Positions 3,085 through 61,280 of a stretch of 64,000 nucleotides of DNA are shown here, piece by piece. The position numbers and the translations under genes are program-made. Source of the stretch: Sipunculus nudus (taxonomy: Eukaryota > Annelida > Sipuncula > Golfingiida > Sipunculidae); assembly GCA_026874595.1 (NCBI GenBank), contig CM049319.1:6396101-6460100 (forward strand). Reading direction: 5' to 3'. The notes under the pieces were generated by a model that was not told where the DNA came from, ran no database searches, and worked only from the letters and a program-made list of their open reading frames with translations. Each line of letters opens with the position of its first letter. Within the stretch, counting starts at the first letter, position 1.

Positions 3085-3427
3085 TAGGCCAAAAAAAATT
3101 AAAGGTATGGTTCTCAGGCACCGCCCGCATCAATTTTAACCCCCCGCATCAAAAATTTTTATTTTGATTTTCAACAGAAACTTACCGATTTTGAGCTGCA
3201 GCCGTTCGGATATTTCTTTTAAGTAGATAAAATCATACAATTTCCTTTGTTATGTAGTGCTTTAGCTTGTTTAGCAAAATAAATCTGTTATTATCATGTT
3301 TTTCCCTTATCATCTGACATTTTTATCGAAACATACAAAAAAGATAAAAAATAAAAAAAACCGCCCGCCCGCATTGATTTCTGAAAAAAAAATGCCTGAG
3401 AACCATATCTTTTTTATTTTGGCCTTA
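3085..3427. mobile_element. MITE-like TIR element, GGTATGGTTCTCAGGCA family, copy 1
   Basis: The left end reads TAGGCC, an A-rich stretch, then AAAGGTATGGTTCTCAGGCA. The right end is its inverse (TGCCTGAGAACCATA..., a T-rich stretch, GGCCTTA), giving TIRs of about 35 bp. The interior has CCGCCCGC motifs near both ends (near 3121 and 3361) and no coding capacity. A second copy lies at 23979-24277 with the same ends and the same internal landmarks. It is non-autonomous, and no transposase of this family is present in the window. Confidence 0.85.
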
Positions 3428-17507: not shown

Positions 17508-17782
17508 GGAGGTAACCGCCTCCATGTTTAATGCCGCCTTATCCAGGTACTTTGTATATCCGCAGAATTCCATTACGGTTTCCGGATTTTCCTGGGGATT
17601 TCTTGTGTGAAACCCAATTTTCGAATACATGCAGTCTCCCAATGAAGCCTGAAGAGGCTCACCCTGGATGGGGACTTACCGTGAAAATTCTCCCCGCTCC
17701 TTGGCTAAGATTCGAACGCAGGTTCTCCCGGCCTTGAACCCTGTGTTTTGAGTGCTGATTACATCTCTCCGAAACCATATAA
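17508..17782 (-). mobile_element. tRNA-headed SINE, family A, copy 2
   Basis: Read on the minus strand, the head has a GTTCGAATCTTAGCC B-box-like segment, followed by the family body (CACGGTAAGTCCCCATCC, GGTGAGCCTC). It ends at the family hairpin GGAGGTAACCGCCTCCA at 17508-17525, which is shared with the copy at 32117. It is more diverged than the 30786-31200 copy. Confidence 0.75.
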
Positions 17783-18299: not shown

Positions 18300-19685
18300 T
18301 TAGTTACGTGCAAGGTTTTTTATTTGTAATTGTAATTTGTAATTTCACAGGTATATATGTTGGTTCAGACTAGGTAAATGATAAGCTTTGTGGATTGTGT
18401 GTATCTAAGAGGCTAAGGCTTGACAATAAAAATTTCAAAGTCAATGTGACGTAAGTTTGTTAAAACTCCATTTCACATTGTATAGAACTAAACAATTGAT
18501 CATATATGATGCTGGACAAGATTACCTCAACAATTGAAAGGCTTATTCCATGGGTATTGACCTAACCTCCGAAAATATTCACCCAACTGTATTTTTTTTT
18601 ATAAAATTGCTAATAACCAACCAGACAATAAACCAACCAAAGGGAAATATAAATACCTCGCCATCTAACAGAGGTATAATAACAAACATTAAAAATCACT
18701 TTACGACAAAAAAAATTTATTTACTGAAAGTAAATGGAGTCACGACGTGTTGTATGACGACGGATATACCTCCTGTCAGAGAGATGGGTCACGTGATTCG
18801 ATTACGCGGACAAAATGTTGTGTTTACAGTAGGCGTTGAGTTAGTGTGAGTGCTTCATAATTGGGTTGGTTTCGTTCCAGGTGTTTTTATACGTCTGCCA
18901 CTGTTCACGACTTCAACAGAAGTGGGATAAATGGTGAATTTGGCTGGGATGACATTAACCGCATTCTTTAACTCTGAACATGAAATTCCTTTATATTCTT
19001 ATCTATTTCTAACACAACATTCTTCAGGTTGGCTTACACTTGCATTATAGACAGGTCCCCGTGAGAAGAACAAATAAAAATATACACTGTAGAGCAAATA
19101 AGAAATCACATGACACAATGGATGAAATTCTACGACTGTGTAAGCAATGATGTTAAAATGATGAATTGGGAGAACATTGGTAAGCCGTAGTCTCGTCTTG
19201 ATTAACGTAAGTGAACGCAATAAAATCGATTCTATGATAATATCTCCAGGGCGTTTCCACGCGAATCAATACATGTACGCGAACGTGGCCATGGCAGTCG
19301 CGCCGCATTCGCAGTGAATTCTTTAAATGAGGTCATTAAGGGAGGGCATCCCTGTGTTTACAGCGCGATCGCGTGCCTAAAGGAATACCAACATGCAAAA
19401 GGCACTGACACTGTTTAGTGATGGTGTTGTGGAGAAATTGGTTGTATTTATAAATAAGGCGCCCTAAAGTTTACTCAATTCCACGTCGGCTTATATAAAA
19501 AATACGCTTAAATGTTTAGTAACGTAAAGAAGTATTTGCAATATCAATGTAAAAGTCAGAAAATTGAAAGTAATTTAAAATACGTCTAACAACATGTTCT
19601 TCATTTTCAGATAAATACAGATTCGAACATAAGTTTAATTCTAAAATATTCACTTTAATCAATTTTATCAGTTTACCAAACGAAA
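18300..19685. other. Gene-free stretch
   Basis: No gene recognised. The open frames at 18550-18849 plus and 18999-19220 minus have no motifs. A slightly GC-richer patch at 19250-19380 carries no identified element. Confidence 0.4.
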
Positions 19686-19689
19686 CCAG

Positions 19690-19985
19690 TATTTCATATT
19701 CGAGGGTAAATTCGCTTATGGGAGTGTTCGACTACTGAACGGAAGGACTTTATCTCGCACCCAACCAGAGTTTCGAAGATAAAATGGATAGAACCTCGAA
19801 GATTCGCTCTTATGTCTTCACCGGAGGATAAGACTTGGAATATTCCTCATCCATTGCTGTTATGTCTTCATCCTCAGGGATGGATGCTACCTTCATTCTT
19901 ATCATATACTCATCTTCATCCTATTTCAACATAGACACTGACAATAAACAGGTCGCAGACCGATCCTTTAACAAATAAGTTAATA
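19690..19985 (+). mobile_element. SINE family B, diverged copy outside the triplication
   Basis: The 3' half matches the SINE in the 2.18-kb units: ATTCGCTCTTATGTCTT, CTACCTTCATTCTTAT, then CATCCTATTTCAACATAGAC, AACAGGTCGCAGACCGATCC. The tRNA-like head is eroded and no clear B box remains. It appears older than the copies at 46-51 kb and shows that the family is dispersed. Confidence 0.65.
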
Positions 19986-20503
19986 ATAGCCCCACCTGCT
20001 ATTTTGACATTTAGCAGAATATAAAAATATCAGTAACACATTAACACAAAGCGGTTCACATTTGAAGTATTATCGCATCTCAGTATTGCGTAACTGGTGC
20101 TTTTTGTGTGTTTTTTTTTTCTGCAAGCCCATTAATACCCTAACAGGCCTATTCTCAAAAAAGATCGGTAAAAGCCGTTTACCATGACGGTTATTGTCCT
20201 TGACTCTTTAAATTGCAGGCCGAGGCTCAAGGTTCCATTATATTAGTTAATTGATGGATTTGAGGAGACGCCAATTGAGTGAGTGGAAGAAATGGAGAAC
20301 CTGCTGTCTGTGATGTTGAGAAAAGGCCACGGCAACGGCGACTATCACATGGAAGCCACTGTAATGGACAACTTCTTTTTGCTTGCAAGATATTTAAAAT
20401 TTTATTGCGTGGGTGTTACTCAAGACTCGTTTGCAAGTGAGGAAGTCGTTGAGTTCTATGATGAGCCGCACTGGGTTAAAAGAATTAAAATCAAATCTGT
20501 CGG

Positions 20504-23978: not shown

Positions 23979-24277
23979 TTTAGGCAAAAAAGATAATAAT
24001 AAAAGGTATGGTTCTCAGGCACAGCCCGCGTCAATTTGAACCCACGCATCAAACATTTTTATTTTGATTTTCATCTTTCAAGGAGATAAATAGACAGTTT
24101 TGATACGACTGCCTCTGTTACGTAGATCTTTAACCTGATTTTTTCTGCTTTTCCCTGTTCTTATGACATTTTTATCGAAACGTACAAAAAAGGTCAAAAA
24201 TAAAATACTGCCCGCCCGCAGAGGTTTCTGAAAAATAGTGCCTGAGAACCATACCTTTTTATTTTTTTGGGTCTTAT
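23979..24277. mobile_element. MITE-like TIR element, GGTATGGTTCTCAGGCA family, copy 2
   Basis: The ends AAAAGGTATGGTTCTCAGGC and GCCTGAGAACCATACCTTTT are perfect inverses over about 20 bp. The TIRs extend outward through A/T-rich sequence to GTTTAGGC on the left and GGGTCTTAT on the right. The interior matches the copy at 3085-3427, including ACATTTTTATCGAAAC and CCCGCCCGCA. It is non-coding. Confidence 0.85.
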
Positions 24278-30254: not shown

Positions 30255-30390
30255 GAATAATAAGCAGACAAACAGAAATTAACTGTCCAACGCATCTGGC
30301 CCTCATTCTGCATCTAAATGAACATTTATTTACGTTCTGGGCAGATTAAATTATACAATCTACTGGATTCCCCTGTTTCTCTAGAGAAAA
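30255..30390 (+). repeat. Dispersed repeat J, copy 1
   Basis: Matches the minus strand of 34495-34625. Shared blocks are AATTAACTGTCC, GCATCTGGCCC, ATGCATCTAAATGAACATTTATTTACG..CTGG and AGATTAAATTATACAA. Each copy is about 130 bp. No TIRs or RNA polymerase III boxes identified, so the class is unknown. Confidence 0.7.
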
Positions 30391-30561
30391 AACTTTAAAA
30401 ATCATATCTTCCTTGCGTATTTATGGTTATTTTCTCACTATTTGACCGTTATGTCCATAGTCCCTGGCTAACATCTGCTAGAGAAATCAATAAGAATACA
30501 CGAAAATCAAGGTCTGGAACTAGATGTGCTACTACCAATCACAAGTTTACTGTATAAAGAT

Positions 30562-30785: not shown

Positions 30786-31200
30786 CGTGGAGGTATCTGC
30801 CTCCATTTTGTAAATGCTGATCTCATTCTTAACCTTAGTATGTACATCTGCTGAGTTTCGAATTCGGTTTGGGACTACTTGACAGGGCGGTAACTCTCGC
30901 TTCCTAACTTTTTTTTTATTTTGTATCCTGGTATCACCCAGGCCCTGCGTCTAAAGCATCTGCGGGTCCAGGGTGTGTAATCAGCCCCAATGCTTGGTCA
31001 TGACACCGAGGAACCCCGATAAGACGCACTCGTTTTTGAGTGATGCATGGCTGTGAGGCACAGCCTTCCTATTAAGCCTGCTTAGAGCTCACCATGGGTG
31101 GGGGCCGACCGTGAAAATTTCACCACCTCGGCTGAGATTCGAACCCACGATCTCCCGGTTTTGAGTCCAGCGCTCTACCCCTGAGCCACAGAAGCCGGCA
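30786..31200 (-). mobile_element. tRNA-headed SINE, family A, best-preserved copy
   Basis: Read on the minus strand it starts TGCCGGCTTCTGTGGCTCAG. An A box (TGGCTCAGGGGTAGAGCGC) is followed by the B box GGGTTCGAATCTC, spaced as in a tRNA with a plausible anticodon arm between. The body contains GAAATTTTCACGGTCGGCCC and GGGCCTGGGTGATACCAGG, then an A-rich tract (30906-30920). The far end is the hairpin-like GTGGAGGTATCTGCCTCCA at 30787-30805. RNA polymerase III transcription from the head is expected of such elements (established knowledge). It has no protein-coding capacity and would depend on a LINE for mobility. Confidence 0.88.
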
Positions 31201-33449: not shown

Positions 33450-34490
33450 TGTGTGTTTTTGTTATTATCTTTAAGATTCTGATTCCCAATGAGCCTATTG
33501 AGCGGAATGTCATGGCCATGGCAAATTGTTTATGAACCTAATTCGAGTTATGTTCAGAGTGTTATCGGCCTTGAAAGTTTGCAGTCGTCTTGACTAACTA
33601 ATATAAGATACAGGTCACGTAATGTGTCTGATCAAATTACTTTGGACTTCATGAAATAAATGAGCATGTCCGTGTTTTTCCTGTTATATGGATTTCCCTG
33701 GTTGTCGGGGAGGTTCGAGAAACAAGAGACCTCTTTGTAGCCAAGTTCTTTTTTCTCCTATTGCAGGAGTGTTATTGATGCGCCCTAGGGCTAACAGAAT
33801 CATACCTAGACAAATACACTTTCAGCAGCCATTAACAAGGTTATCTCAGATTAAACTGTATTCCAGGACGACGCCGGTTTAAATTTGAGTCACGTGAGAA
33901 TGTTTTAAAAGGGTGTCTAGGGCTGACTCATCTGGGGAGGTCCCGTTATGAAAATAATACTGCCCACTTAACGAATTAACCACTCGGTTTTTCTTAGTAT
34001 ATTGTCTTTTGTGGACATTTACACGGCCAAATGTCTAAAATTGTATCATTTCCACCGGTCTAACCGAATTTTACCATGTCTGTATTATGATTGATATCAA
34101 AGAAATAATTCAGCAAGTCTACATATATATATATATTGATAGGTGTTGCAGTTCCATTTGTTATTAATTACAATTTATAATTTACAATTTCTCACAGTTT
34201 ATTGCATCTTATTTATTTCGCAGTTTAATGCTTTAAAGTTATTGACAAAGAATTGTAAACAAATCAAATATTTTGCCTATGACATTTACGTCAGAACAAG
34301 ATGTGTCCAAATGCTATAAATTATTGAATCATGAGGCTGAAAAGTCAGAACATACTTGGCTTGGCTTTCGCTTCGTTTATTTTGTATTTAATTGGTCTCT
34401 CTTGCGGAGGGACGATGGACATATCGCTCACATAGTGAGATAATACCCATAAATTCACAGGAAGCATAAGAATTTTTAAATTTATTTTCT
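33450..34490. other. Gene-free stretch
   Basis: No features recognised beyond a short (TA) run at about 34121-34137. Confidence 0.4.
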
Positions 34491-34494
34491 CTTC

Positions 34495-34625
34495 AGAAAC
34501 AGCAGTCCAGTAGAACCAACAGACTTGTATAATTTAATCTTACCAGAGCGTAAATAAATGTTCATTTAGATGCATGAAGTGGGCCAGATGCGGTGGACAG
34601 TTAATTTGACGCGCTGTGCCAAACC
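34495..34625 (-). repeat. Dispersed repeat J, copy 2
   Basis: Inverse orientation relative to 30255-30390. The conserved core CGTAAATAAATGTTCATTTA is followed by GATGCATGAAGTGGGCCAGA. The two copies could pair in a long transcript across 4.2 kb. Confidence 0.7.
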
Positions 34626-44700: not shown

Positions 44701-45695
44701 CTATGCATGCGAAGAAAACATATGAATCCGAGCCCCGCGTAATGCGTGCCACACCAACTTAATAGGTATATCCCATGTCAGCGGGTAGACCTCGGCCAGC
44801 TCTGCTTGCCAGAATAGAGGCGGCTGTATTACCAGTGATTGACTCCAGCTCTGGGCCGGGGCGTACAAACATCCCGCAAAAGAAAATAAAATTTTTAGAT
44901 AATAAAGAATCCTAAAAAACATACAGTGGTAATGCAGCTTATGTCAGCAAATACATCAAACGTGAAGTGAAGTTGTTAACAAGCCATTCGAATAACCACA
45001 ATGAACAAGTAAAACCTCCCCGCCTAGCGGAGGCATAATCATCTTTGGTCTTTTCTGTTTGACGCCTTTAAGTAGAACGCCAATCACACCATCGTCTCAG
45101 TAATCTAGCGTCTACATAGAAATCTGTGCTCCACACAGATAACACTTAAGAGTGCCTTTTTCTTGTTCATAAAAAATATGGCCTCACAAAAATATTTTCC
45201 GACTAAGCCCAATTGACTATTTGCATTAATAATTGGTGCAGCCAATATCTCATAATGCTTATGCATTACACCATATCTAACACCAGCTATAATCTCGCGT
45301 TTGCTGTCAACATCTCTGTAATTGGATAGTTATCACTAACGTGGTGTTAAATCTCGAACTTTGGATTTATATTATGCTGTCGAAAGTCTAATAAGAAAAA
45401 CTATACAGTTTGTGAACATTAAAGAAAAAGGGGAATATATTCTGATTAAAGGCATTTCATGCAGCGAAACTCGGGGAGATAAGATACTAAAGAGCTTGAT
45501 AGAATTATCGATATATTTATATGCAGATCGATGCGAGATACCTGATACGATTAATCAAGACTATAACTGGGATCAAACCATGATACAGATACAGAATTAA
45601 TGAATTAACAGCATTGACATATGCATAAAGTGTACGGTTTCGGAGAAATGTCCACCATAAAATAAAAAAAATATAAATTACTTAATTATTTATCA
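44701..45695. other. Gene-free stretch with one repeat terminus
   Basis: The minus-strand ATG frame 44701-44922 (73 codons) begins with a hydrophobic segment (LYYLKILFSFAGCLYAPAQS) that looks signal-peptide-like, but no family is recognised. At about 45018-45042, CCTCCCCGCCTAGCGGAGGC resembles a terminus of the CCTCCGCC-ended elements without a partner end. Confidence 0.35.
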
Positions 45696-45758
45696 ATCAT
45701 CTATCCATAATATCCCGATAGCAAGCTCTAATCAATATTATGGGGGAAGTGTCACATG

Positions 45759-45761
<3 letters not shown>

Positions 45762-45818
<57 letters not shown>
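45762..45818. repeat. (GA)n microsatellite of unit 1
   Basis: About 57 bp. The corresponding tracts in units 2 and 3 are shorter, showing independent length change since the triplication. Confidence 0.95.
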
Positions 45819-45820
<2 letters not shown>

Positions 45821-46159
45821 GACATAAAGTTCTAGGTCTAATAATCCGTGAATTTCTAACAGTTTAGTTATGGTGCCACTCTTGATCTCATTTTTCGTCC
45901 AATGTATGTTGTTGTTTAGCTGATGCAAATACTGAAAAGCCTTTTTGCTCAACATACCACAGCGTACCCAAAGTCAATTTCAATGTTCACTGGGCCATGG
46001 CATGCTACCTAAAGCCCGGCTAAAATTAGTCCCGGCTCCGACCTGTCAGCTCCCATGATTCCAATGTTTTCGTGTGCTGATTATCTAAGAGATGCGACAG
46101 GAAAATCGTCCAATTGGAAAAAAAGGGGACAAAAAAGTGATTAACTTGGTGATCAACAG

Positions 46160-46462
46160 GGTGTCGGACGTAGCCTAGCTAGTGGATAAGGCGTTGGACT
46201 TCGGAGCTGTAGTTCCCTGGTTCGAACCACGCTGGTGCGTCATTAGCATCGTGGTGTAATCTTGTGAACCTCAGATATTCGCTCTAAAGTCTTAGCGACC
46301 CGTTATGACTTTTGGACTATTCCTAACTCCGTACATTAAAAAAACCCCTGAAATCCAGAAAGCTTAGTAATAACATTTTATTCTTACCGCATGGATACCT
46401 TCATCCTCATTCAATAGACAGTGAAACCAACAGGTCACGCACCAATCCTTAATAATATAACA
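46160..46462 (+). mobile_element. tRNA-Arg-like SINE, family B, unit 1
   Basis: The head GTAGCCTAGCTAGTGGATAA continues GGCGTTGGACTTCGGAG and closely resembles a metazoan tRNA-Arg(UCG): D-arm, GGATAAGGCGT and a TCG anticodon within GACTTCGGA. The B box GGTTCGAACCA (46219-46229) follows. The 3' body ends in AACAGGTCACGCACCAATCC. The tRNA-unrelated body is shared with 19690-19985. It is transcribed by RNA polymerase III in principle. The head is not a working tRNA, because the acceptor stem halves do not pair. Confidence 0.85.
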
Positions 46463-47364
46463 GGTAATATACTAGCTGAAATAGCGATAGCGGTTCTAAT
46501 TTAATCGAAAGGCTACGGGAAGCAACGCGAAGGGAACTATGTTACTAGGAACGTAAAATGCTCGTTCATGACCAGAAATGTAGGTCGTGATAGAAGGGTG
46601 GCTGTAAATGGCGTGCCATTAGGTGTCATTAAGGAAGTTATGTATTAGCACAGACGTGTGTTTGTTGGTTGGTGGGTTAGTAGGTTTGATTGTTTTACAC
46701 AAAAACAATAAGAGGATTCGGACATAGTCTCAGGAAGAACCCTTAGGACAGGCAGAGGTATTCGCTCTAATTGAGTGTTATTCTAGATTCCGAAATTGTT
46801 TTTAGTGTTCTTATGTAAGATTCAGTACGGCAAGACTTGAAGAAATTATTTGCATTTAGGTAAACCGCAACAGTATTGTTCACGTAAGCCCCTGGTACAC
46901 GTCGCCTCCAGCCTATACAAATAAGCTTGCGAACAATGGCCGCTTTTAGTTATCTGAAGGTTTATTTGAAAGCGATGCAGTTTGACAAGTCAATGTTTGA
47001 TCCATCAAAGACCTTGGGGATATAAAACGAACGTTTATGTCTCAAATGTATCAAGTAACAAGGGAAATGAGTTTCATTGTTCACAGAGATTCAATTTGCT
47101 GAGCCTCCTTAATGCGGGCCATTCTCGAACATTCATAGGCTGTCAAACGAATCTCCATGTATTCATTACATGGATTCTTATCTCGGCTTCCGCTAAGCGA
47201 TTGAATTTTGAATAGCATTAGGACAATGATACTGAATGCCCTTCTAGAGATGCTGAATAGGAAATACGAAAAGGCGGAATGGTTGCTGAAATCACGGAGT
47301 CAAGGGGGTAAAGAGAGAACAGGTGGTGTTATGTGGCACCATATCAACTGTAACATAACACCTA

Positions 47365-47574
47365 CCATTCTGCGAGAGATGAAAGCCGCCAGCCGTAGTT
47401 CACTTCAAGTGAACGGCTCATGTTGCTAACTATACTGAGCCTTTACATTTTGTTCTTCTCTATTGTTTAAAAAGAGGAGTATTCATTCGACTTCAAGGAA
47501 AACCAAACTTGACCTTGCTTTATGTCTATTCAGAAAGCAGAATCGGCTTTTTTGTTCACAGTCAAATGACAGGG
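47365..47574. other. Segment deleted from the third unit
   Basis: These about 210 bp (equivalent to 49550-49758 in unit 2) are missing at about 51736 in unit 3, where CATAACACCTA joins directly to TATAATGCTGATTATATAG. The segment includes an inverted repeat GTTCACTTCAAGTGAAC. Confidence 0.85.
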
Positions 47575-47955
47575 AATGCTGATTATATAGACTTCTGTAT
47601 AGACTACCAGTTTTAAAACGTTGTCAGTTCCAGGCACAAAGCAGCTGCACAATACCTTTTCCAAGAGAACTGACGAGCTGCCACGGTAACAGTTAAAGAT
47701 GGTAATATCTATTATTTTCGGAAATAAAAAAGAAGAGCCAGTTGAAAATATTTTTTCTGGCGTGTGTATTTGTTTGTCAATTTATTGTTGGATAGGGGAC
47801 ATGTCCGCCGACCCCATCCTACTCCCAGCACACTATTCATCCATGGTGACACAACCCCACCCCTCCACATTTTTCTAATTAATTCACCTATCCATAATAT
47901 CCCGATAGCAGGCTCTAATAAATATTATGGAGAAAATTACCTGAAATGTCATATG

Positions 47956-47958
<3 letters not shown>

Positions 47959-47997
<39 letters not shown>
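47959..47997. repeat. (GA)n microsatellite of unit 2
   Basis: About 39 bp. The RERERE open frame across it is an artefact. Confidence 0.95.
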
Positions 47998-47999
<2 letters not shown>

Positions 48000-48341
48000 G
48001 AGATAAAGTTCTGGGTCTATAATAATCCGTGAATTTCTAACAGTTTAGTTATGGGGCCACTCTTGATCTCATTTTTCGTCCAATTTGTGTTGTTGTTTAG
48101 CTGATGCAAATGCTGAAAAGGCTTTTTGCTCTACATACCACAGCGTACCCAAAGTCAATTTCAATGTTCACTGGGCTATGGCATGCTACCTAAAGCCCGG
48201 CTAATATTAGTCCCGGCTCCGACCTGTCAGCTCCCATGATTCCAATTTTTTTCGTGTGCTGATTATCTAATTGAAGCGACAGGAAAGTCGTCCGATTGGA
48301 AAAAAGGGGACAAAAAAGTGATTAACTTGGTGATCAACAGG

Positions 48342-48642
48342 GTGTCGGACGTAGCCTAGCTAGTGGATAAGGCGTTGGACTTCGGAGCTGTAGTTCCCTG
48401 GTTCGAACCACGCTGGTGCGTCATTAGCATCGTGGTGTAATCTTGTGAACCTCAGATATTCGCTCTAAAGTCTTAGCGACCCGTTATGACTTTTGGACTA
48501 TTCCTTACTCCGTACATTAAAAAAAACCCTGAAATCCAGAAAGCTTAGTAATAACATTTCATTCTTACCGCATGGATACCTTCATCCTCATTCAATAGAC
48601 AGTGAAACCAACAGGTCACGCACCAATCCTTAATTATATAAC
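48342..48642 (+). mobile_element. tRNA-Arg-like SINE, family B, unit 2
   Basis: Copied with the unit and almost identical to the unit 1 element. It is not an independent insertion. Confidence 0.85.
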
Positions 48643-50139
48643 GGGTAATATACTAGCTGAAATAGCGATAGCGGTTCTAATTTAATCGAAAGGCTACATG
48701 GAAGCAACGCGAAGGGAACTATGTTACTGGGAACGTAAAATGCTCATTCATGACCAGAAATGTAGGTCGTGATAGAAGGTTGGCTGTAAATGGCGTGCCA
48801 TTAGGTGTCATTAAGGAAGTTATGTATTAGCACAGACGTTGTGTGTTTGTTGGTTGGTGGGTTAGTAGGTTTGATTGTTTTACACAAAAACAATAAAAGG
48901 ATTCGGACTTAGTCTCAGGAAGAACCCTTAGGACAGGCAGAGGTATTCGCTCTAATTGAGTGTTATTCTAGATTCCGAAATTGTTTTTAGTGTTCTTATG
49001 TAAGATTCAGTACGGCAAGCCTTGAAGAAATTATTTGCATTTAGGTAAACCGCAACATTATTGTTCACGTAAGCCCCTGGTACACGTCGCCTCCAGCCTT
49101 TACAAATAAGCTTGCGAACAATGGCCGCTTTTAGTTATCTGAAGGTTTATTTGAAAGCGATGCAGTTTGACAAGTCAATGTTTGATCCATCAAAGACCTT
49201 CGGGATATAAAACGAACGTTTATGTCACAAATGTATCAAGTAACAAGGGAAATGAGTTTCATTGTTCACAGAGATTCAATTTGCTGAGCTTCCTTAATGC
49301 GGGCCATTCTCGAACATTCATAGGCTGTCAAACGAATCTCCATGAATTCATTACATGGATTCTTATCTCGGCTTCCGCTAAGCGATTGAATTTTGAATAG
49401 CATTAGGACAATGATACTGAATGCCCTTCTAGAGATGCTGAATAGGAAATACGAAAAGGCGGAATGGTTGCTGAAATCACGGAGTCAAGGGGGTAAAGAG
49501 AGAACAGGTGGTGTTATGTGGCACCATATCAACTGTAACATAACACCTACCATTCTGCGAGAGATGAAAGCCGCCAGCCGTAGTTCACTTCAAGTGAACG
49601 GCTAATGTTGCTAACTATACTGAGCCTTTACATTTTGTTCTTCTCTATTATATAAAAAGAGGAGTATTCATTCGATTTCAAGGAAAACCAAACTTGACCT
49701 TGCTTTATGTCTATTCAGAAAGCAGAATCGGCTTTTTGTCCACAGTCAAATGACAGGGAATGCTGATTATATAGACTTCTGTATAGACTACCAGTTTTAA
49801 AACGTTGTCAGTTTCAGGCACAAAGCAGCTGCACAATACCTTTTCCAAGAACACTGACGAGCTGCCACGGTAACAATTAAAGATGGTACTTTCTATTATT
49901 CTCGGAAATAAAAAAGAAGAGCCAGTTGAAAATATTTTTTCTGGCGTGTGTATTTGTTTGTCAATTTATTGTTGGATAGGGGACATGTCCGCCGACCCCA
50001 TCCTACTCCCAGCACACTATTCATCCATGGTGACACAACCCCACCCCTCCACATTTTTCTTATTAATTCACCTATCCATAATATCCCGTTAGCAGGCTCT
50101 AATAAATATTATGGGGAAAATTACCTGAAATGTCATATG

Positions 50140-50141
<2 letters not shown>

Positions 50142-50180
<39 letters not shown>
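50142..50180. repeat. (GA)n microsatellite of unit 3
   Basis: About 39 bp at the equivalent site. Confidence 0.95.
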
Positions 50181-50183
<3 letters not shown>

Positions 50184-50523
50184 GAGATAAAGTTCTGGGT
50201 CTAATAATCCGTGAATTTCTAACAGTTTAGTTATGGTGCCACTCTTGATCTCATTTTTCGTCCAATTTGTGTTGTTGTTTAGCTGATGCAAATACTGAAA
50301 AGCCTTTTTGCTCAACATACCACAGCGTACCCAAAGTCAATTTCAATGTTCATTGGGCCATGGCATGCTACCTAAAGCCCGGCTAATATTAGTCCCGGCT
50401 CCGACCTGTCAGCTCCCATGATTCCAATTTTTTTCGTGTGCTGACTATCTAATTGAACCGACAGGAAAGTCGTCCGATTGGAAAAAAGGGGACAAAAAAG
50501 TGATTAACTTGGTGATCAACAGG

Positions 50524-50820
50524 GTGTCGGACGTAGCCTAGCTAGTGGATAAGGCGTTGGACTTCGGAGATGTAGTTCCCTGGTTCGAACCACGCTGGTG
50601 CGTCATTAGCATCGTGGTGTAATCTTGTGAACCTCAGATATTCGCTCTAAAGTCTTAGCGACCCGTTATGACTTTTGGACTATTCCTTACTCCGTACATT
50701 AAAAAAAAACCCTGAAATCCAGAAAGCTTAGTAATAACATTTCATTCTTACCGCATGGATACCTTCATCCTCATTCAATAGACAGTGAAACCAACAGGTC
50801 ACGCACCAATCCTTAAAAAT
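50524..50820 (+). mobile_element. tRNA-Arg-like SINE, family B, unit 3
   Basis: Copied with the unit. One change in the anticodon-stem region (CGGAGATGTAG instead of CGGAGCTGTAG). Confidence 0.85.
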
Positions 50821-52049
50821 ACAACAGGTAATATACTAGCTGAAATAGCGATAGCGGTTCTAATTTAATCGAAAGGCTACGGGAAGCAACGCGAAGGGAA
50901 CTATGTTACTAGGAACGTAAAATGCTCATTCATGACCAGAAATGTAGGTCGTGATAGAAGGGTGGCTGTAAATGGCGTGCCATTAGGTGTCATTAAGGAA
51001 GTTATGTATTAGCACAGACGTTGTGTGTTTGTTGGTTGGTGGGTTAGTAGGTTTGATTGTTTTACACAAAAACAATAAGAGGATTCGGACATAGTCTCAG
51101 GAAGAACCCTTAGGACAGGCAGAGGTATTCGCTCTAATTGAGTGTTATTCTAGATTCCGAAACTGTTTTTTTTAGTGTTCTTATGAAAGATTCAGTACGG
51201 CAAGCCTTGAAGAAATTATTTGCATTTAGGTAAACCGCAACATTATTGTTCACGTAAGCCCCTGGTATACGTCGCCTCCAGCCTTTACAAATAAGCTTGC
51301 GAACAATGGCCGCTTTTAGTTATCTGAAGGTTTATTTGAAAGCGATGCAGTTTGACAAGTCAATGTTTGATCCATCAAAGACCTTTGGGATATAAAACGA
51401 ACGTTTATGTCTCAAATGTATCAGGTAACAAGGGAAATGAGTTTCATTGTTCACAGAGATTCAATTTGCTTAGCTTCCTTAATGCGGGCCATTCTCGAAC
51501 ATTCATAGGCTGTCAAACGAATCTCCATGTATTCATTACATGGATTCTTATCTCGGCTTCCGCTAAGCGATTGAATTTTGAATAGCATTAGGACAATGAT
51601 ACTGAATGCCCTTCTAGAGATGCTGAATAGGAAATATGAAAAGGCGGAATGGTTGCTGAAATCACGGAGTCAAGGGGGTAAAGAGAGAACAGGTGGTGTT
51701 ATGTGGCACCATATCAACTGTAACATAACACCTATATAATGCTGATTATATAGACTTCTGTATAGACTACCAGTTTTAAAACGTTGTCAGTTTCAGGCAC
51801 AAAGCAGCTGCACAATACCTTTTCCAAGAGAACTGACGAGCTGCCACGGTAACAATTAAAGATGGTAATATCTATTATTCTCGGTAATAAAAAAGAAGAG
51901 CCAGTTGAAAATAATTTTTCTGACGTGTGTATTTGTTTGTCAATTTATTGTTGGATAGGGGACATGTCCGCCGACCCCATCCTACTCCCAGCACACTATT
52001 CATCCATGGTGACACAACCCCACCCCTCCACATTTTTCTAATTAATGGA

Positions 52050-53680
52050 ATGTAATGTTGTCAATAAAATGCTTTAATCGCAATCCGTAAAAGATACTTA
52101 ACAGCATTCCAGTTGGAGTTATTAACAAAAATGTCTTAAAGTAGTGCAATTTTCAGATATTGATAAAATATAAAAAAGACTGATAATATGACATAATTCG
52201 GCCCTTTCCGACACTTTTACTTCTTGCTGGTTTCTGAAGCAATGCTATTCCTTATTAATTTAAACTTATATCACTTCAATATTGTTCAGATTTTGAATAA
52301 AATGTTTTTTAAAACTCCTCAAAAACGTCTGAACACTACACACATCTGGTTGTAAATCAGTACGAAATCGACTTAACTGGTATATGGATGGTATAAATAC
52401 AACCTTTGCTAGACATATATATGTCTCAGTATAAAATTTTTTACACACCTGGCCAAACACATATACGCCTGGTATCAACATGATATTCGCAGACAAATGG
52501 ATTCCTATCTTGAGTTTCCTATCTATAATATAATATACATACACAACATTTGCAAGACATTTATATATCTAAGCATATGATATTTGCTTAAATTGGCATG
52601 TCTTAAATGAATATGACATGCAGATGAATAAAATACACATGCGATAGATATCTATATTTATATATATGATAAATATGGTATTCGCTTTAAGTCTGTACGT
52701 CTGAGATGAATATATGTCATTCCTTATGTAGTATACTCTGTGTCTATATAGAATTTCCAACACAGCAAACCTTATAAAACACGACAGTGGGTGAACTTCC
52801 GCATCCCCAAAGGGAAGGCCAACTGAAATAGCAACATAACCACGCAACTGATATAATCCTTAATTTGAGTCGCATCAGCTATCAAGTATATTGTAATTTA
52901 CGAGACACCGCAGTCTCTGTACTTTGTCTCTTGACTACGAAGGCAATCGGGAGAGCTGCCACTTTTGTTTTAATTATAGAATTCATTCCCAAAATAGCAT
53001 TCATCTTGGCTTAAACTTTAATCGTTTCAGAAGCAATTTATATCGTGGGCTATAGACCAGAAATGAACTTCCGGAACAGCAATGCAGTGACAGCCCCTCG
53101 TAAATCAAACCCATAACACAAACTGATACGTCAGTTCAGCTTATTTTCAATTTATTTCATTAAAGCACATATTGGTTTTTACTGTAAGCTGCCGGTTTCT
53201 CTCTGCTAACAAAGGTAAAGATTACAAATCGTTCTCAAGCGCTTCGGGCTGTTGCATTCCTTTTGGTGGTCTCCCGCTAAAACTAGATTGATTAATCAAT
53301 ATTTCTTTATGTGGGCTTTGAAGTGTCCCTTCTCGCTGTGTAGGCATTGCGCCTGAGACGATATTCGTTAGTTTTCCATTTCACATGCGGCAGACTGTCA
53401 AGATAATAACTTTCCCTGGTGGATTCGCGTGTTTTTACCACCAGTAAAGCCACAAGATACGCCAGCCGGTTGTTGAACCAAACTTATCAATCAGTCTTGG
53501 TCCACACCAGCTTGGCTTTGAGTGATGTTAGAGGAATCACCGCCCGAGGTCCGGAACTACGACAAAAGAGGTTCCTTCCGCCCTGCTACTCCTTAAAATT
53601 GGTTCTTATATCCTGGGAGTGGCCTTACCTCAACCACGCCAGGGCAAGCTGCACATCTTCCGATCCATGGAATTCCTTGT
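52050..53680. other. Gene-free stretch
   Basis: The sequence to the right of the triplication is AT-rich with no element ends. The plus frame 53419-53865 (148 codons) is the longest on that strand, but its second half is a pyrimidine tract and no domain is recognised. Confidence 0.4.
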
Positions 53681-53739: not shown

Positions 53740-54005
53740 AATCTGCTCATTATTCATATTTTCTCTATCTTTTCTGGTTTTTCTACTTTTCATTATTATT
53801 CTCCTTTATTATTCTTTTCTTTTATTCTTATCCATCACCGGTTATTTTCTTTGTTTCCTAAATAATCATTATTTTCCCATCGTTCTTTTCGATTCATTTC
53901 TTTAACTTTCCACTCTGTCCCTTCTCCTTTTTCTAATATTACTTGTACATGGCATTTTTACTTTTTCTCAATATATTCTTCTTTTTCCTTTTGCCATCTC
54001 CGTCT
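53740..54005 (+). repeat. Pyrimidine-rich (T/C) tract
   Basis: About 260 bp dominated by T and C with TTATTCTTTTCTTTTATTC-like iterations. It produces the three overlapping Phe/Ser/Leu-rich open frames seen here. Long polypyrimidine DNA can occur upstream of 3' splice sites or as degenerate simple repeat. Confidence 0.7.
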
Positions 54006-54249
54006 TATATTATTGTCTGTAAGATTCAAGTCTTGTCATTTCATAACGCCATTAATTGTGTTTGTTTTATTCGGTTTACGTAGGGGACTTTTAACAAAGT
54101 AACCTGGTGGTTATGAAACGTATTTGCGCCCAAGAGACAATACATTCCAGGTACGTACTCAGCTTCTTGTGAGACAAAAACAATGGTGTAACAAATATAA
54201 TATAAAAGTGTAACAGACCCATAACATTAGGAACAATGATCTAGAGACA

Positions 54250-54388
54250 CAAATATACCCCCGCCATATTTTTAACAAGGAAAGTGTAAATCAGTGATGT
54301 GGGGGGGGGGGCGGATGGACGGACAGACGTCGGCACGACAGACGCGGACCATTTTTTTAAGCTCCCTCCTTACGGCGGGGACTTAAAA
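54250..54388. mobile_element. Possible degraded TIR element with GACGGAC repeats
   Basis: ACCCCCGCCA at the left and GGCGGGGA at the right are inverse. The interior has a G run (54300-54311) and GGATGGACGGACAGACG. The style matches the terminus at 37375-37463. The ends are short, so this is tentative. Confidence 0.4.
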
Positions 54389-54389
54389 A

Positions 54390-55815
54390 AAACTGATGCA
54401 AGTCTAAGTAACATATGCCAATAGATTACCTTGAGTAACGTAGACTCTATGAAGAGTGTACTGTGTAGAGGCAGCATACGGAGTCAGGAATCGCTGAATA
54501 TTTATCTAAATGACATGCCATAGACAATTATTAGACATGATGGTCAGCTCTAAATCTTTATGGGTTTCACTTTTTATACACGGAGTCGACAACGATTTCT
54601 ACGCAGTAGAAGTTAACAAATAAAAAATGTGAATATCTGCGGTCCAGCTCTGTTTTTACCATGAGAAGGCTGTATGGAGTTGAAAGAATTTTCAATCCTA
54701 GCATCTGGGTCTCTGCCTCAAGGCTGAATTCCATCCTCGTGTGGACCGATTCTTCCACTTGTCTGAATCCATATGACGTGTATGTCTGCTTGTCCTAATC
54801 TTGCTTTATATTCTGCTGTCATGGGGAAGCCAGTCATGGATTTGTGGTACATGTTGTTATAGGAATATCACTGAAGTGATCTGTCCAAGCCATCCCTATT
54901 TAATCACTACACACACTGATCATACAAATAGCCACCAATCTAAAATGAGTACCGGCTCCACTATTACCTCAAATGACAGTCATAATAACAAATATTTGCC
55001 AGTTTAAATAAGAATCACGTCACTTTAATAATAATAATTACTATTTGAACGTATTTTTTTATGTATTACAATAAATGAAAACACGCTCATGAGAAGGGTT
55101 TAGAGGTAACCAATATCACATCAATATGATATTATACCTAGATAATTACTGCCCAAATTAAAAAAGTGCATAATTTAACCATAAGAAATAACTAAAAAGG
55201 CATCCACATACATATTTTACAGTTTCAGCAAATAAAAGAAAATCTGTAACAAGATCACCGCAATGGTGCATTAAACGCCTAGCGTATTTCCCCTTTGACC
55301 TTATTAAATCTGCATTGGTGTTACCGAGAATTTAATTCGGGTGAAAAACTCTATTGGTAAATATTTAAATCAATAAATATGCGTGGAAATATATATATAT
55401 GGCCTATAGTAATAATTATTATAATTATATTAATAATAATGATATATTTTATATAGCGTAAATTCCACAATCCACAGAGTGATTTAAAGCAATTTAAAAA
55501 ATGATATGAATAAACATAATAGAAATATACAAGTGTGTGCTTATTGTTGAAGTTAAATGATATATGTATACACAACTAGACATTTCTTGGCATCGCAGAT
55601 GCCATTGTATATCCAGATAATAAATCACCCCTCCCCCTTCAAAAATAGGCCCCCATCTTCAGATGCATATACTGACACTTGGCAAACCGCCAGGGTTTCT
55701 TCAGGTGTGACCTTCACAACCAAGGTCAAGGTTAAGAGTCTCTTTCAGCAACTTATCATCTCACATCTTCCATTTTGATTTCCAGGTAGTCTTTTCGACT
55801 TAAGAAACAATATTT
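54390..55815. other. Gene-free stretch
   Basis: AT-rich, including a TAATAAT-like low-complexity segment at about 55410-55455. No features otherwise recognised. Confidence 0.4.
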
Positions 55816-55818
55816 TTC

Positions 55819-56578
55819 ACCAAATATGGGAATATTCAAGGTCATGGCCACTCTCATAGGAAAGGTCATGACCCCAATTTAGATATACTTCATTCCATAA
55901 CCCATGTCTATGTAAATGCATAATATGAAAGAAATCTATCAAGGAGTTTTTGACTTATAATGCTCACAGTACTGTCAAGTGGTAATGATGGGGGTATTAA
56001 AAGGCGCGAAAACAAAAAAGACAAAAGATAGCGCTACCTGTCTTCCGCAGAAGACAAAGCTATTCACGATATTTAGGCAATTGGATTTTTGGACCAATCC
56101 ATGCACTCTAATTGAGATATTCAAGATTTTGTGTGACTTGTACCAAATATGGAAATATTCAAGGTCAAGACCACTCTCATAGAAAAGGTCATGACCCAAA
56201 TTTAAATATACATCATCCCATAACCCATGTCTATGTATATGCATAATATAAAAGAAATCTGTCCATTAGTTTACAATGCTCCCAGTACTGTCAAGTAGCA
56301 ATGATGGGGGTATTTAAAGGAGCAAAAACAAGAAAAGGATAATAGTTGGCGCCATTAGTTTCTGGTACCTGACAAGCCGATGCAAGATCTTCGTTCAACT
56401 TGATTTTTTAACCAATCCATACAAGATTTCTTCAGATATTCAAAAATTCGTGTGATTATCCCCGAAAAGGACCTATTCAAGGTCGGAACACTCTCCTAGC
56501 AAAGGTAATCACCCAATATTAAATATGCTTCGCCCTCTAACCTATATTTATGCATATGTCAAATTTGGTAAGTATCCG
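55819..56578. repeat. Tandem array of ~320-bp monomers
   Basis: Units begin at ACCAAATATGG (55819 and 56142), with a third, partial and more diverged unit at about 56460-56578. Shared blocks are ATTCAAGGTCA, CACTCTCATAG.AAAGGTCATGACCC, AACCCATGTCTATGTA.ATGC and ACTGTCAAGT.G.AATGATGGGGGTAT. The spacing is 323 and about 318 bp. The array ends where the LINE 3' end begins. It may be a local satellite or the 3' untranslated repeats of that LINE. Confidence 0.8.
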
Positions 56579-56579
56579 T

Positions 56580-59500
56580 TAAAATATTTTCTTTTTAATA
56601 TTTAGCTCTGCAACGCTGAAGGCACCATTTTGCACTCGAGATGATTTTGTGAAAGCAACATTCAATAAATATTGGTCAGCAGAACGCAGTGCTCTGCAGC
56701 AGTGCTCTGCAGGGATTGAATGGTTGCAATAGTTCCTGAAGATACCGGGATGCAAGCCCATAGACACACTGATATACCAGAGTCAGAACTTTAAATGCCA
56801 TTCGCTGTTCAACTGGCAACCTGTGAAGAGCATACAAAACTGATTTGATGTGTTTCGAATTTAGTTTTCAAGTGGGGAAATTCTAGCTGCAACAAACATA
56901 CTTAATACGCTGGAGGGGTTTCAGTTGAACAGATATTAACCCGCATCGAATTGCAGGAATCAAGCTTAGTTGTTATAAATTAATGGATGACATTTTCAAG
57001 CGAATCACTATAAAAGTAATTCTTAATTTTGCACGTATTCCGGATGGATGTGCATATTAGCTGAGTTGCACACTGATGACACATGGGCATCCATCGATGC
57101 ATTGGACTTCTTAATGATACGAATATTCCTTGCACAATGCGAGGGTAAAATATATCATTTTTCAATAGTGATGAAAGTGATTGTCAATAGTGATGACATC
57201 ACTAAGAACTCTGTCTTGTCACTGTTTAACTTGAGGGTATGTCTACTCATCCAGCTTTGCACAGATGTTATACAAGTTTCAATCTGACTGATGGCTTCAT
57301 CAATGTCAGTAGATTTGCATGTAATATAAATCTGAATGTCGTCGGCATATACATGGTAAATTAATTATGCTCATTTTACGAAGCAGACATTCTAATGATG
57401 TTGTGTTGATAGTGAAGAAGGTGGGCCCCAATTCTGATCATTGAGGAACCCCACAATTCAGCAACTTTGTTTCGGATTTCACTATTTGATATGGATACTC
57501 TGAGAACGATCCTTTAGGTAAGATGTAACCCATTTTAACACAGTGCCACGGATTGTTAAATTTTGTAATGCTTTGAGGATACAGTCGTGATCTACTGTGT
57601 TAAATGCAGCTGAAAGGTCCAGTATCACAAGCAGCACAATTTTGCATTCACCAACTGCGCAAACAATGTCGTTTTGAACGCGGACAAGTGCGGTCTCGAT
57701 ACTATGCCCTTTCCTGTAGGGAGATTGAAAAAGCTCTTAAAGACCATTGCTATTCAAATATTCCCTAATCTGCTGATCTACCACTTACTTAAGCACTTTT
57801 AAAATAAATGACAGATTGGAGACTGGTCTGAAGTTTTTTGGACAATTTGGATCTAAAGTTTGTTTTTTTGGGCAGAGGGGTCACAAGCACAGACTTGAAT
57901 GCCTCCGGAAAATTTCCCTCTGTCAATGATTTATTGACAATAGCTACAATAACCGCTCAAATTTCAATGAGAACTTTCTTCAGCAATTGTGTTGGGATTG
58001 GGTCCATTGTACAACTCTTATTTGGCAGCGATGCTAAGATCTTTATTATCTTGACTGTTGATAAGATTTTGAAGTTGATGAAGTGGTTTTCCCCATGTCG
58101 AAATGTTGACTTTCTTTTTGTTTGCCTCTTGAATAAAGGAATTTTTAATTTTTGAAATTTGTCATGAAATAGTCCCCAAACATGGCAACCAGCTCAACTG
58201 TTATTTTATAGCAGTTTTGGACTAGATTTCTTACTCAACAGTCTATTTACCACCTGGAATATATGCCTATTATCACCTTTATTTTTCTCAACAGCAGACT
58301 TTAAATAATCTGCTTTTGCCTGACTGATGAGACTATTGACCAAAATTCATCTCTGAATGAACATCTGATGATGGACAGTCAAATGTGTTTTGCGCAAGAG
58401 TCTTTCTGTTGCCTCCGTGCTTGTTTGGCTTCACGTATATTGACAGTGTACTATTTAGCTTCTGAATGAATGGTAATTTTGCGGGGTTTTAAAGGAGCTA
58501 ATTCATCCAAAATGGAAGACAGCACTTTGTTGTATGTGTTGACTATATCGATCATCCAGGGAAAAATCTCAAGTCGCTGCATCAGGCAGCGCACTCTTTG
58601 ATAGCATTTGTCAGGGAACCTTCATTGATGGAATGCAGCTTTCTATATATTACTTCCATCACGGGAAGAGGGTGGTTTGGCGACAGAAAGGTGAGCAAAA
58701 ACCCGGTAATGGTCTGGAAAACTATGATCAACGGAATAGAAGAAACTAAGGAGTCCTGTGTCCTGGTTATAATGAGGTCTAAATGTGACCATTACTGTGT
58801 TTGGAACTTAACACATATTGAGTGAAAACAAACGACACAATTAGACTTAGACACTGAGTGCTGTATTTGGCCCTTTTATCATCCACATGAAAATAAAATA
58901 ACCGACAATCATCAGCAGGCCTTGTACTCTAGAAAGGGTGTACAGGTAATCTGTAAAATCACAGAAAACATGGCTGGCTGACAGGCTATTTTTCTTAGAT
59001 GCTGGGGGTCTGTAGATAAAGGTCAAGCGAATGGTGACCAGGCTCTCCCAATACTTCAAAGGAATCAGATACATTCTATGGACTTATGCTCGGGCACTGC
59101 AGGCTTCTTTGATATATACTTGCTGTCCCTCCTCCCCTGGTTGTCCTTGGATAATGTTTTATATCATAACCTCGGGAAGCAGTTCACTGATGATAACTTT
59201 TTCAATATCTGTGCCAGTGAGCCAGGTTTCTGTCAGTGCCAACAGTCCAGATGCTGGTCAACAATGAAATCTTGCAGGCTAGTGGTTTTAATACAGACCA
59301 TGCATCGAGTAGATCAAATGAAAGTCGAGGGCTTGGCATCGTTTACGCAGAATTGATTTGAATTTCTGGTCATTTTGTCATATTCATATTCATAAATTAG
59401 ATTGCTATGGTTAACATTATGTTTGTTGTGTTAACAAGTCTTAAAGTGCACTGACCTCTGTGGCACACTGACCTTAACCTCTTTGCAATGCCTTTTGATC

Positions 59501-59640
59501 CCCCTTTTGTTGGGTGAATTGTCCTGTGAACAATTCCAAGTGATTTTAAGAATGTCATATGCACTGGGTAACACTCTGTTCATGAGTCCAAGTACAGCTG
59601 ACCACAGGTCCAGGAGGAAACCTCTGTTTAATTAAGACAT
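56580..59640 (-). pseudogene. Dead non-LTR retrotransposon (L2/CR1/Rex1-like LINE) ORF2 remnant
   Basis: Read on the minus strand, pieces in changing frames follow the order of a LINE ORF2. An apurinic-type endonuclease comes first, with LTETWL (about 59240) and IYRPPASKKNSLSASHVF (about 59020-58967). A linker follows with LAPLKPRKITIHSEAK (about 58480). The reverse transcriptase then has YRKGHSIETALVRVQNDI (57717-57664), the catalytic LDLSAAFNTVDHD (57622-57584) and YADD (57349-57338). A C-terminal segment carries LPVEQRMAFKVLTLVYQ (about 56812-56762). The intact protein would nick target DNA and reverse-transcribe its own RNA. Here many stops and frameshifts separate the pieces, including a 13-bp tandem duplication at 56686-56711. 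Only about 80 codons around the RT core (57485-57730) remain open. The 5' end appears truncated within or just before the endonuclease. The exact clade needs a tree. Confidence 0.93.
56686..56711. repeat. 13-bp tandem duplication inside the LINE
   Basis: GCAGTGCTCTGCA occurs twice in a row. Thirteen bases is not a multiple of three, so this alone shifts the frame of the LINE C-terminal region. Confidence 0.85.
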
Positions 59641-59649
59641 TGTAAAGTT

Positions 59650-61280
59650 CACTGGCCTGTAACTTATCCAAATACAATGACTCATAGGGATCAAGCGCAA
59701 ATTGTCCAAGTACTGAATGTCCTGTTTCCCCAGATCAATAAGAACTATAAAAAATTCAAAATATCTGATAATGTGGATGATAATCCTCATAAATACTGTA
59801 GTTTTCCAGAGCAGCAAATTATCGTAGAATTATATAGTGTCTATTTTCAGAGCAATACATGCTAACAATACAGAATAATCAAGAACATTTTGCAGAACAG
59901 AAAATAGGTGCAACCCCTTGGGTGCTGGCCTTAAATTTTCCTATAATCGGGCGAGATGATGTATTGGTTAGTAGTTATAATGAGTTTCGTGAAAAACCAG
60001 CCATTCTTGGTACGTAATCACGGTGATACTCAAAGTTAACGGACGGACTGACATAACGTGGATATACAACGCCCCGTCATAGACGAGCGTATCCAAAGTT
60101 ATTCAAAGCATAACATACTATCTAATATACCGCAACTTTCACACGAATGTTTCAAGAGCAATTTAATAGTACATGTCCAGTTTAAACATATGAATATTTT
60201 ATAATCTAACTGTAATGTCCGACAATATTATGTACGGCATCAGTCATATTAGTTTATAAGAAAAGGGAAGCTGTGAGAAAGTGTGAACCAATGGTGCTGC
60301 TGTAAGACTTTCATTTGGAAGGACGTTTCAAGTCCAAAAACGGGATCTAGGCCTTTCCCTTGATGTTTTAATCGGAATCAGCAAGTTCCATAGACAATCT
60401 GGTACACTGCCTTCGAAAATAAATAACATGCAAGAGTTGCTATGTCAGATATGTGGCTGAGCACAGCTGACCTGACACTCCGAACTTCACTGATCATGAG
60501 GTTTCACACACTGAACATCCATTTGTGTTCAAAGTACTGTCATTCCGCACAGGGAGGTGGTTTGCGGACCGGTCTCATGAAAGGCGTCACTTGTTGGGAG
60601 CAGAGGTGTGTATCTTCGTGATCTTGTGCTGTTCGTACCTTTACTGGTGTTATATTTTGATGTTTTCGGAGACGCATCAAAAATGACCTCACGTGACTCG
60701 CACGGAAGAAGATCAGAGGCTCCTCAGAAATACCTGACGGCACGTGGTGTGGGCAGGCTGACAACCTAACAGCCCATAGCAAGTGCCAAAGTGTCTTCGT
60801 GACACATAGACTTGCCGCCCGGACGGTACTTTGCTTAATAAAAGGACCAGGGTTCTGTTTCAATAAATTTGTTTACGACCAGAGTCCAGTTTGCATACCA
60901 TTGCCACAAGTATGGTAACCATGGTGACTCACACATGAACATGACTTGATCAGTCACTTTGTTGTAAAAGGCCATCTGATACTCATTTCATTATATATCA
61001 ATATTATGTGTCGAGCATATGGAAACTAAAACCGCTCGTCTTAAATGCTTTCCCCGTAAACACGTTTATTCTTTTTTCGGGCTAGTCCGCAAATGACTTC
61101 TAGTTATGTTAATGGGCTTCTAAAGGCTTCAAACACCCTCGAGTGTGTAGGTGTGTGAATGTGTCTCCTTCCGACATCCCACACTGTACTTGTTTACCAT
61201 TTGGGATGATCCTTTCTAAGTATTGGCATAAAACCTTGAATTAGGCTTACACCATTCAATACGCCAGTAAACGCATATAT
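59650..61280. other. Gene-free stretch with a GC-richer patch
   Basis: At 60540-60863 the minus strand has a 107-codon frame starting at TTG in a GC-richer patch. The plus strand also has an open frame through the same patch (about 60690-60918) with several cysteines. Neither has a recognised family, so no gene is called. Confidence 0.35.

Follow-up and report, generated by a model that had tools for sequence, protein, structure and literature searches.

A three-copy tandem array of a 2.2-kb unit in Sipunculus nudus looks like an ordinary local duplication that later gained a third copy

How did three adjacent copies of the same 2.2-kb stretch come to stand on contig CM049319.1 of Sipunculus nudus, and are they as young as they first appear? 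We addressed this question in a window of 64,000 nucleotides, that is the whole stretch of DNA analysed; positions count from its first base, and features carry no strand unless one is given. Self-comparison of the window reveals three head-to-tail units starting at 45701, 47888 and 50072, with the array ending at 52046. The unit start CTATCCATAATATCCCG is present at each of these three positions, resulting in periods of 2187 and 2184 bp. An earlier note on this DNA had described three direct copies with these coordinates and periods, and both the self-comparison and the unit-start positions bear it out. Unit 1, the left copy, spans 45701..47887 (2187 bp); unit 2, the middle copy, 47888..50071 (2184 bp); and unit 3, the right copy, 50072..52046 (1975 bp, lacking 210 bp that units 1 and 2 have).

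Because 45697-49549 matches 47884-51734 at 97.05% identity over 3864 columns, a chance origin of the array is excluded. The same self-comparison aligns 45690-47364 with 50060-51734 at 96.14% identity, and 51738-52046 matches both earlier units over 309 bp (97.4 and 98.1%). The locus thus consists of adjacent direct copies of a multi-kb unit, as expected of a tandem segmental duplication. Its G+C content is 0.41 and its CpG observed/expected ratio 0.79, which is unexceptional compared to 0.84 in the 20 kb to the left (G+C 0.38) and 0.71 to the right (G+C 0.39). Separately, a region at about 54000-61000 shows CpG observed/expected of 0.48 and 0.46 in windows from 57000 and 58000, against about 0.7-1.0 elsewhere; it is perhaps a methylated gene body or old repeats.

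The pairwise divergence of the copies bears on their age. With the GA tract cut to equal length in every copy, 53 of 2137 aligned sites are substituted between units 1 and 2 (2.48%), 47 of 1927 between units 1 and 3 (2.44%) and 40 of 1941 between units 2 and 3 (2.06%). The alignments list 7, 8 and 7 gap blocks, respectively; the last 4-column block in both pairs involving unit 3 is only the array end, and the blocks of 182 and 24 between units 2 and 3 are a single deletion. Among 1855 gap-free columns (column 120 onward), private changes number 22 in unit 1, 19 in unit 2 and 18 in unit 3 (chi-square p 0.80), two of the last sitting at the deletion point and probably being alignment artefacts; one further column has three states. 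Each copy has drifted by about one percent, and the units are almost equidistant. Given pairwise substitutions of 2.1-2.5% and evenly spread private changes, the units are not nearly identical and show no clear age difference. The earlier note had called them nearly identical and the event recent. The first is an overstatement in view of these substitutions plus the indels; the second goes beyond the data, since each copy carries 18-22 private substitutions in 1855 columns, a divergence uncalibrated in time.

How the copies were joined can be read from the four boundaries. Immediately before the cut, the left flank/unit 1 boundary reads ATCAATCAT, junction 1-2 reads CTAATTAATTCAC and junction 2-3 reads CTTATTAATTCAC, each followed by CTATCC; the unit 3/right flank boundary reads CTAATTAAT followed by GGAATG. 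Junction 1-2 (47874..47893) consists of the unit end, TCAC and the unit start, and junction 2-3 (50058..50077) is the same here apart from a single A-to-T change within the unit end. The four bases TCAC stand between the point where identity to the right flank ends and the point where identity to the left flank begins. Allowing one substitution assigns TCA(C/T) to the left flank and makes the join blunt; with an inserted base allowed as well, three bases (AAT) could be common to both sides. A TAATTA motif lies near both breakpoints, out of register. The short A/T-rich microhomology that had been placed just before the (GA)n tract is not exact, as TCAC lies between the two sides.

Compared over 75 bases, the two internal junctions disagree at 2 positions, one 11 bases ahead of the cut and the other the 18th base past it, both away from the join. 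A match this close makes it probable that the join formed a single time and that exchange across the full unit homology produced the third copy. The breakpoint shared by both internal junctions is what unequal crossing over would leave; it fits that mechanism without proving it. The array-masked self-search of the window (E up to 1e-4, matches longer than 50 bp, 13 rows) contains no repeat common to both array flanks and able to seed homologous exchange.

We consider the array to be, probably, a tandem segmental duplication of local, apparently non-coding DNA, which would have reached three copies in two steps; we infer both the mechanisms and their order. In the first step, a 2.18-kb stretch would have been duplicated head to tail with essentially no homology at the join, as the junction suggests, by end joining or by a replication template switch; the partners would be AT-rich sequence at the right end of the stretch and sequence just left of its start. 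In the second step, unequal crossing over or sister-chromatid exchange over the 2.18-kb homology would have added the third copy soon after, as the matching junctions suggest. Afterwards, the copies would have diverged roughly equally, and unit 3 would have lost 210 bp beside a palindrome. This account has its own weak points. A single-step triplication, or homogenisation of the three copies in the past, would also account for their equidistance, and the uneven divergence along unit 1 is unexplained by simple equal ageing.

A single replication-based or rolling-circle event making all three copies at once would account for the matching junctions and for near-equidistant copies with no pair clearly younger (26, 27 and 30 differences in the unit body). 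However, two quick steps would leave the same pattern without a special mechanism, and at the edge units 2 and 3 group together (bootstrap 0.87); we give such an event a small but appreciable chance. Another suggestion is that the first duplication began with unequal exchange at the SINE or the (GA)n tract, both of which lie inside every unit. Exchange through either would, however, place the breakpoint inside it, and neither lies at a junction, which contradicts the suggestion and makes it extremely unlikely.

An assembly artefact, with haplotypes or misplaced reads producing a false triplication, deserves separate attention. A pairwise divergence of about 2% could fall within the allelic range of a highly heterozygous animal. 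Three distinct sequences would likewise result from a genuine two-copy array that received one haplotype copy in error. Several observations speak against an artefact. A single-copy locus has two haplotypes, fewer than the three mutually distinct sequences seen; an overlap error would be expected to require homology at the join, which is lacking; and the 210-bp deletion is private to unit 3. Real duplication is the better reading because the three sequences are each about 2% apart and joined without overlap homology. Judged from the sequence, a pure artefact appears unlikely, and artefactual triplication of any kind we regard as improbable.

The earlier note missed that unit 3 (1975 bp) is incomplete. 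More specifically, the match between units 1 and 3 halts at 47364/51734 and restarts at 47575/51738, so that 210 bp present in unit 1 (47365..47574 in the unit alignment) are replaced in unit 3 by a 3-nt filler (51735..51737). Between units 1 and 2, this stretch shows 5 differences in 206 columns, an ordinary divergence, and no duplication flanking it is seen in the unit alignment. For these reasons, and because units 1 and 2 both keep the stretch, a deletion in unit 3 is likelier than an insertion. A palindrome with perfect 10-bp arms and an 18-nt loop occupies 47325..47362 of unit 1, its right arm ending 2 bases ahead of the first base missing in unit 3; the surrounding 47310-47380 folds at -20.7 kcal/mol (RNA parameters). 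This proximity suggests that the palindrome may have caused the deletion.

Divergence is not spread evenly along the units. In the first 297 compared columns (~45821-46117 in unit 1, its most diverged compared stretch), there are 16 differences between units 1 and 2, 14 between units 1 and 3 and 8 between units 2 and 3; in the remaining 1558 columns, the body, the corresponding counts are 26, 27 and 30. For units 1 and 2 this amounts to 5.4% (16/297) at the left edge and 1.7% (26/1558) in the body. The first part holds 11 of the 22 changes private to unit 1, against 8 of 37 for units 2 and 3 (Fisher p 0.042, an optimistic value as the cut at column 420 was picked post hoc). Clustering of differences in 100-column windows, which uses no such cut, gives p 0.0015 for units 1 and 2, 0.005 for units 1 and 3 and 0.15 for units 2 and 3 (2000 shuffles). 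In block-bootstrap draws, units 2 and 3 are the closest pair in 49% over all columns, 87% at the edge and 10% in the body, where units 1 and 2 are closest in a fraction of 0.54, units 1 and 3 in 0.36 and units 2 and 3 in 0.10 (ties credited to the first pair).

These patterns raise the question of homogenisation. None of the longest identical runs stands out (p 0.07, 0.18 and 0.16), so a recent conversion tract is not shown. Present homogenisation of the units, which had been offered to explain their likeness, finds no backing in these runs (p 0.07-0.18), although the left edge of unit 1 exceeds the body in divergence. That more diverged edge hints weakly at one of two histories: the body may have been homogenised in the past, or unit 1 may be of mixed allelic ancestry. 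A stronger form of the idea, in which the array would be a nascent non-coding macrosatellite whose body (1558 columns) gene conversion kept equally alike in the three copies while the left edge of unit 1, adjoining unique DNA, escaped and diverged, strikes us as doubtful. Satellite DNA forms long homogenised arrays with copies at other loci; the array here has three copies only, 2.1-2.5% diverged.

Each unit carries a (GA)n tract and, as the earlier note had proposed, a Pol III-type SINE-like element, for which A- and B-box-like sequences are found in unit 1. The tract, on the + strand, is (AG)28 in unit 1 (45762..45817, 61 bp from the unit start) and (AG)19 in both unit 2 (47959..47996) and unit 3 (50143..50180), each 71 bp from the unit start. 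The SINE-like element of unit 1 lies at 46160..46460 (+), its ends being approximate and set by eye, with an A box at 46171, 470 bp inside the unit, and a B box at 46219. The boxes match the consensus at 11/12 and 10/11 positions, respectively, these being raw match counts, and start 48 bp apart. The boxes were scored in unit 1, and the unit alignment shows the stretch to be nearly identical in the other units. A dispersed copy, as expected of a tRNA-derived SINE, exists in the form of one relative of the SINE body at 19791-20053, without the tRNA-like 5' part; its score of 114 exceeds those of all 100 mononucleotide shuffles, the best five reaching 55-60. A recognisable tRNA fold, also expected, was found by neither search: in 45400-52400, Rfam gives no tRNA match at E up to 5, and ARAGORN, with bacterial settings, none at all. 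The 7-bp repeat CAACAGG (46154, 46428) was considered as a target-site duplication and rejected, since the similarity to the dispersed relative crosses the second copy. One 30-base SINE pattern has 0 loci in each of viral_contigs and genome_contigs, collections of viral and prokaryote DNA, a result without bearing on animals.

Other repeats occur in the window. A tRNA-like sequence at 31124-31195 (-; Rfam tRNA, 33.3 bits), with similar stretches near 17632 and 32317, is perhaps a different tRNA-derived SINE family. A 122-bp stretch at 6141-6262 matches its own reverse complement at 85% and is possibly a palindromic mobile-element remnant. An inverted repeat pair of about 200 bp lies at 30276-30465 and 34408-34607 (81-83% identity), a direct-order pair at 3094-3420 and 23995-24265 (69%), and a partly overlapping, more diverged direct repeat at 55819-56558 (about 77% identical over about 420 bp).

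Might the unit itself be mobile, perhaps as a Helitron-like element, or a satellite monomer, inserting or amplifying as tandem arrays? Helitrons have a 5' TC end and a 3' CTRR end with a hairpin just upstream. The start of the unit at the left flank, where TC follows A, and CTAA followed by T near the right end resemble such ends. In the internal junctions, however, nine bases separate CTAA (CTTA in junction 2-3) from CTATCC, and the 5' TC is missing; the terminal 35 nt of unit 1 form no stable hairpin, and the terminal 60 nt only a 6-bp one of -4.3 kcal/mol, about 40 nt from the end. A hairpin of -11.5 kcal/mol lies further in. A Helitron-like concatemer was rejected on the junctions, which read CTAATTAATTCAC followed by CTATCC (CTT for CTA in junction 2-3) without a 5' TC. 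Beyond Helitrons, the SINE-like element within the unit lends the idea some support, as a SINE origin has been proposed for a limpet satellite (PMC11121367). However, the rest of the window holds a single match to the unit below E 0.01, that to the SINE body at 19892-19968. We regard amplification as a mobile element or satellite monomer as very improbable.

Coding content offers no other explanation for the array. No stop-to-stop open reading frame (ORF) of 90 aa or more lies within it. All three units share eight short ATG-started ORFs of at least 25 aa; the 29-aa ORF at 46936, the sole one of them scanned on its own, has no Pfam match at E up to 1. A further scan took in 10 ORFs of at least 70 aa, of which 7 lie in unit 1 or span its junction and 1 each belongs to unit 2, unit 3 and the left flank; none of the 10 matches Pfam at E up to 0.1. 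The Pfam scan of the window covered 111 of its 128 ORFs of 70 aa or more, the omitted 17 being 10 in units 2 and 3 and 7 low-complexity or overlapping frames elsewhere. Three families appear at E up to 0.01 (RVT_1, Rad51 and DUF1980). The RVT_1 and Rad51 ORFs are both outside the array, and DUF1980 is absent from the unit 1 and unit 1-junction ORFs scanned singly (E up to 0.1). A coding function of the array was rejected in the absence of a long ORF and of a Pfam family in the array ORFs scanned, bearing in mind that ORF scans would miss short exons and non-coding functions. In Rfam the array yields no more than two matches, both below threshold (E 2.5 and 4.7), which we take as chance. The array DNA is apparently non-coding, with no function evident.

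Two ORFs elsewhere in the window are worth recording. One at 18538-18846 (+) matches Pfam Rad51 at the borderline (E 1e-4, 22.1 bits with the cut-off at 22) and could be a Rad51-family exon or a chance match; the other, at 57485-57736 (-), encodes an 84-aa reverse transcriptase piece (Pfam RVT_1, E 5.6e-8) and is probably a broken retrotransposon.

Taken together, the array looks like an ordinary local duplication, not a brand-new one, that later gained a third copy, and a neutral copy-number change is the likeliest reading. Being a minor structural change in DNA that is apparently non-coding, it matters little alone. It would be usable as a copy-number marker, with the junction, the 210-bp deletion and the GA length as tags, and it would provide a small test case for edge copies escaping homogenisation.

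Two known systems invite comparison. The PcH-sat satellite of limpets is described as stemming from a truncated SINE that lacks A and B boxes, and as mainly pericentromeric (PMC11121367). Our array resembles it in having tandem copies that include SINE-like sequence, but consists of three copies of a 2.2-kb unit in which the SINE-like part is small. Amplification of lac in Escherichia coli is interpreted as a join with little homology followed by unequal crossing over of the duplicated stretch (PMC3161906). As at lac, a new join would here have been followed by copying of the duplicated stretch through direct-repeat exchange. Unlike lac amplification as described there, the array has only three copies, no inverted parts and no known selection, and its join lacks exact microhomology, whereas the embedded inverted duplications at lac have 3 to 30 bp (PMC3161906).
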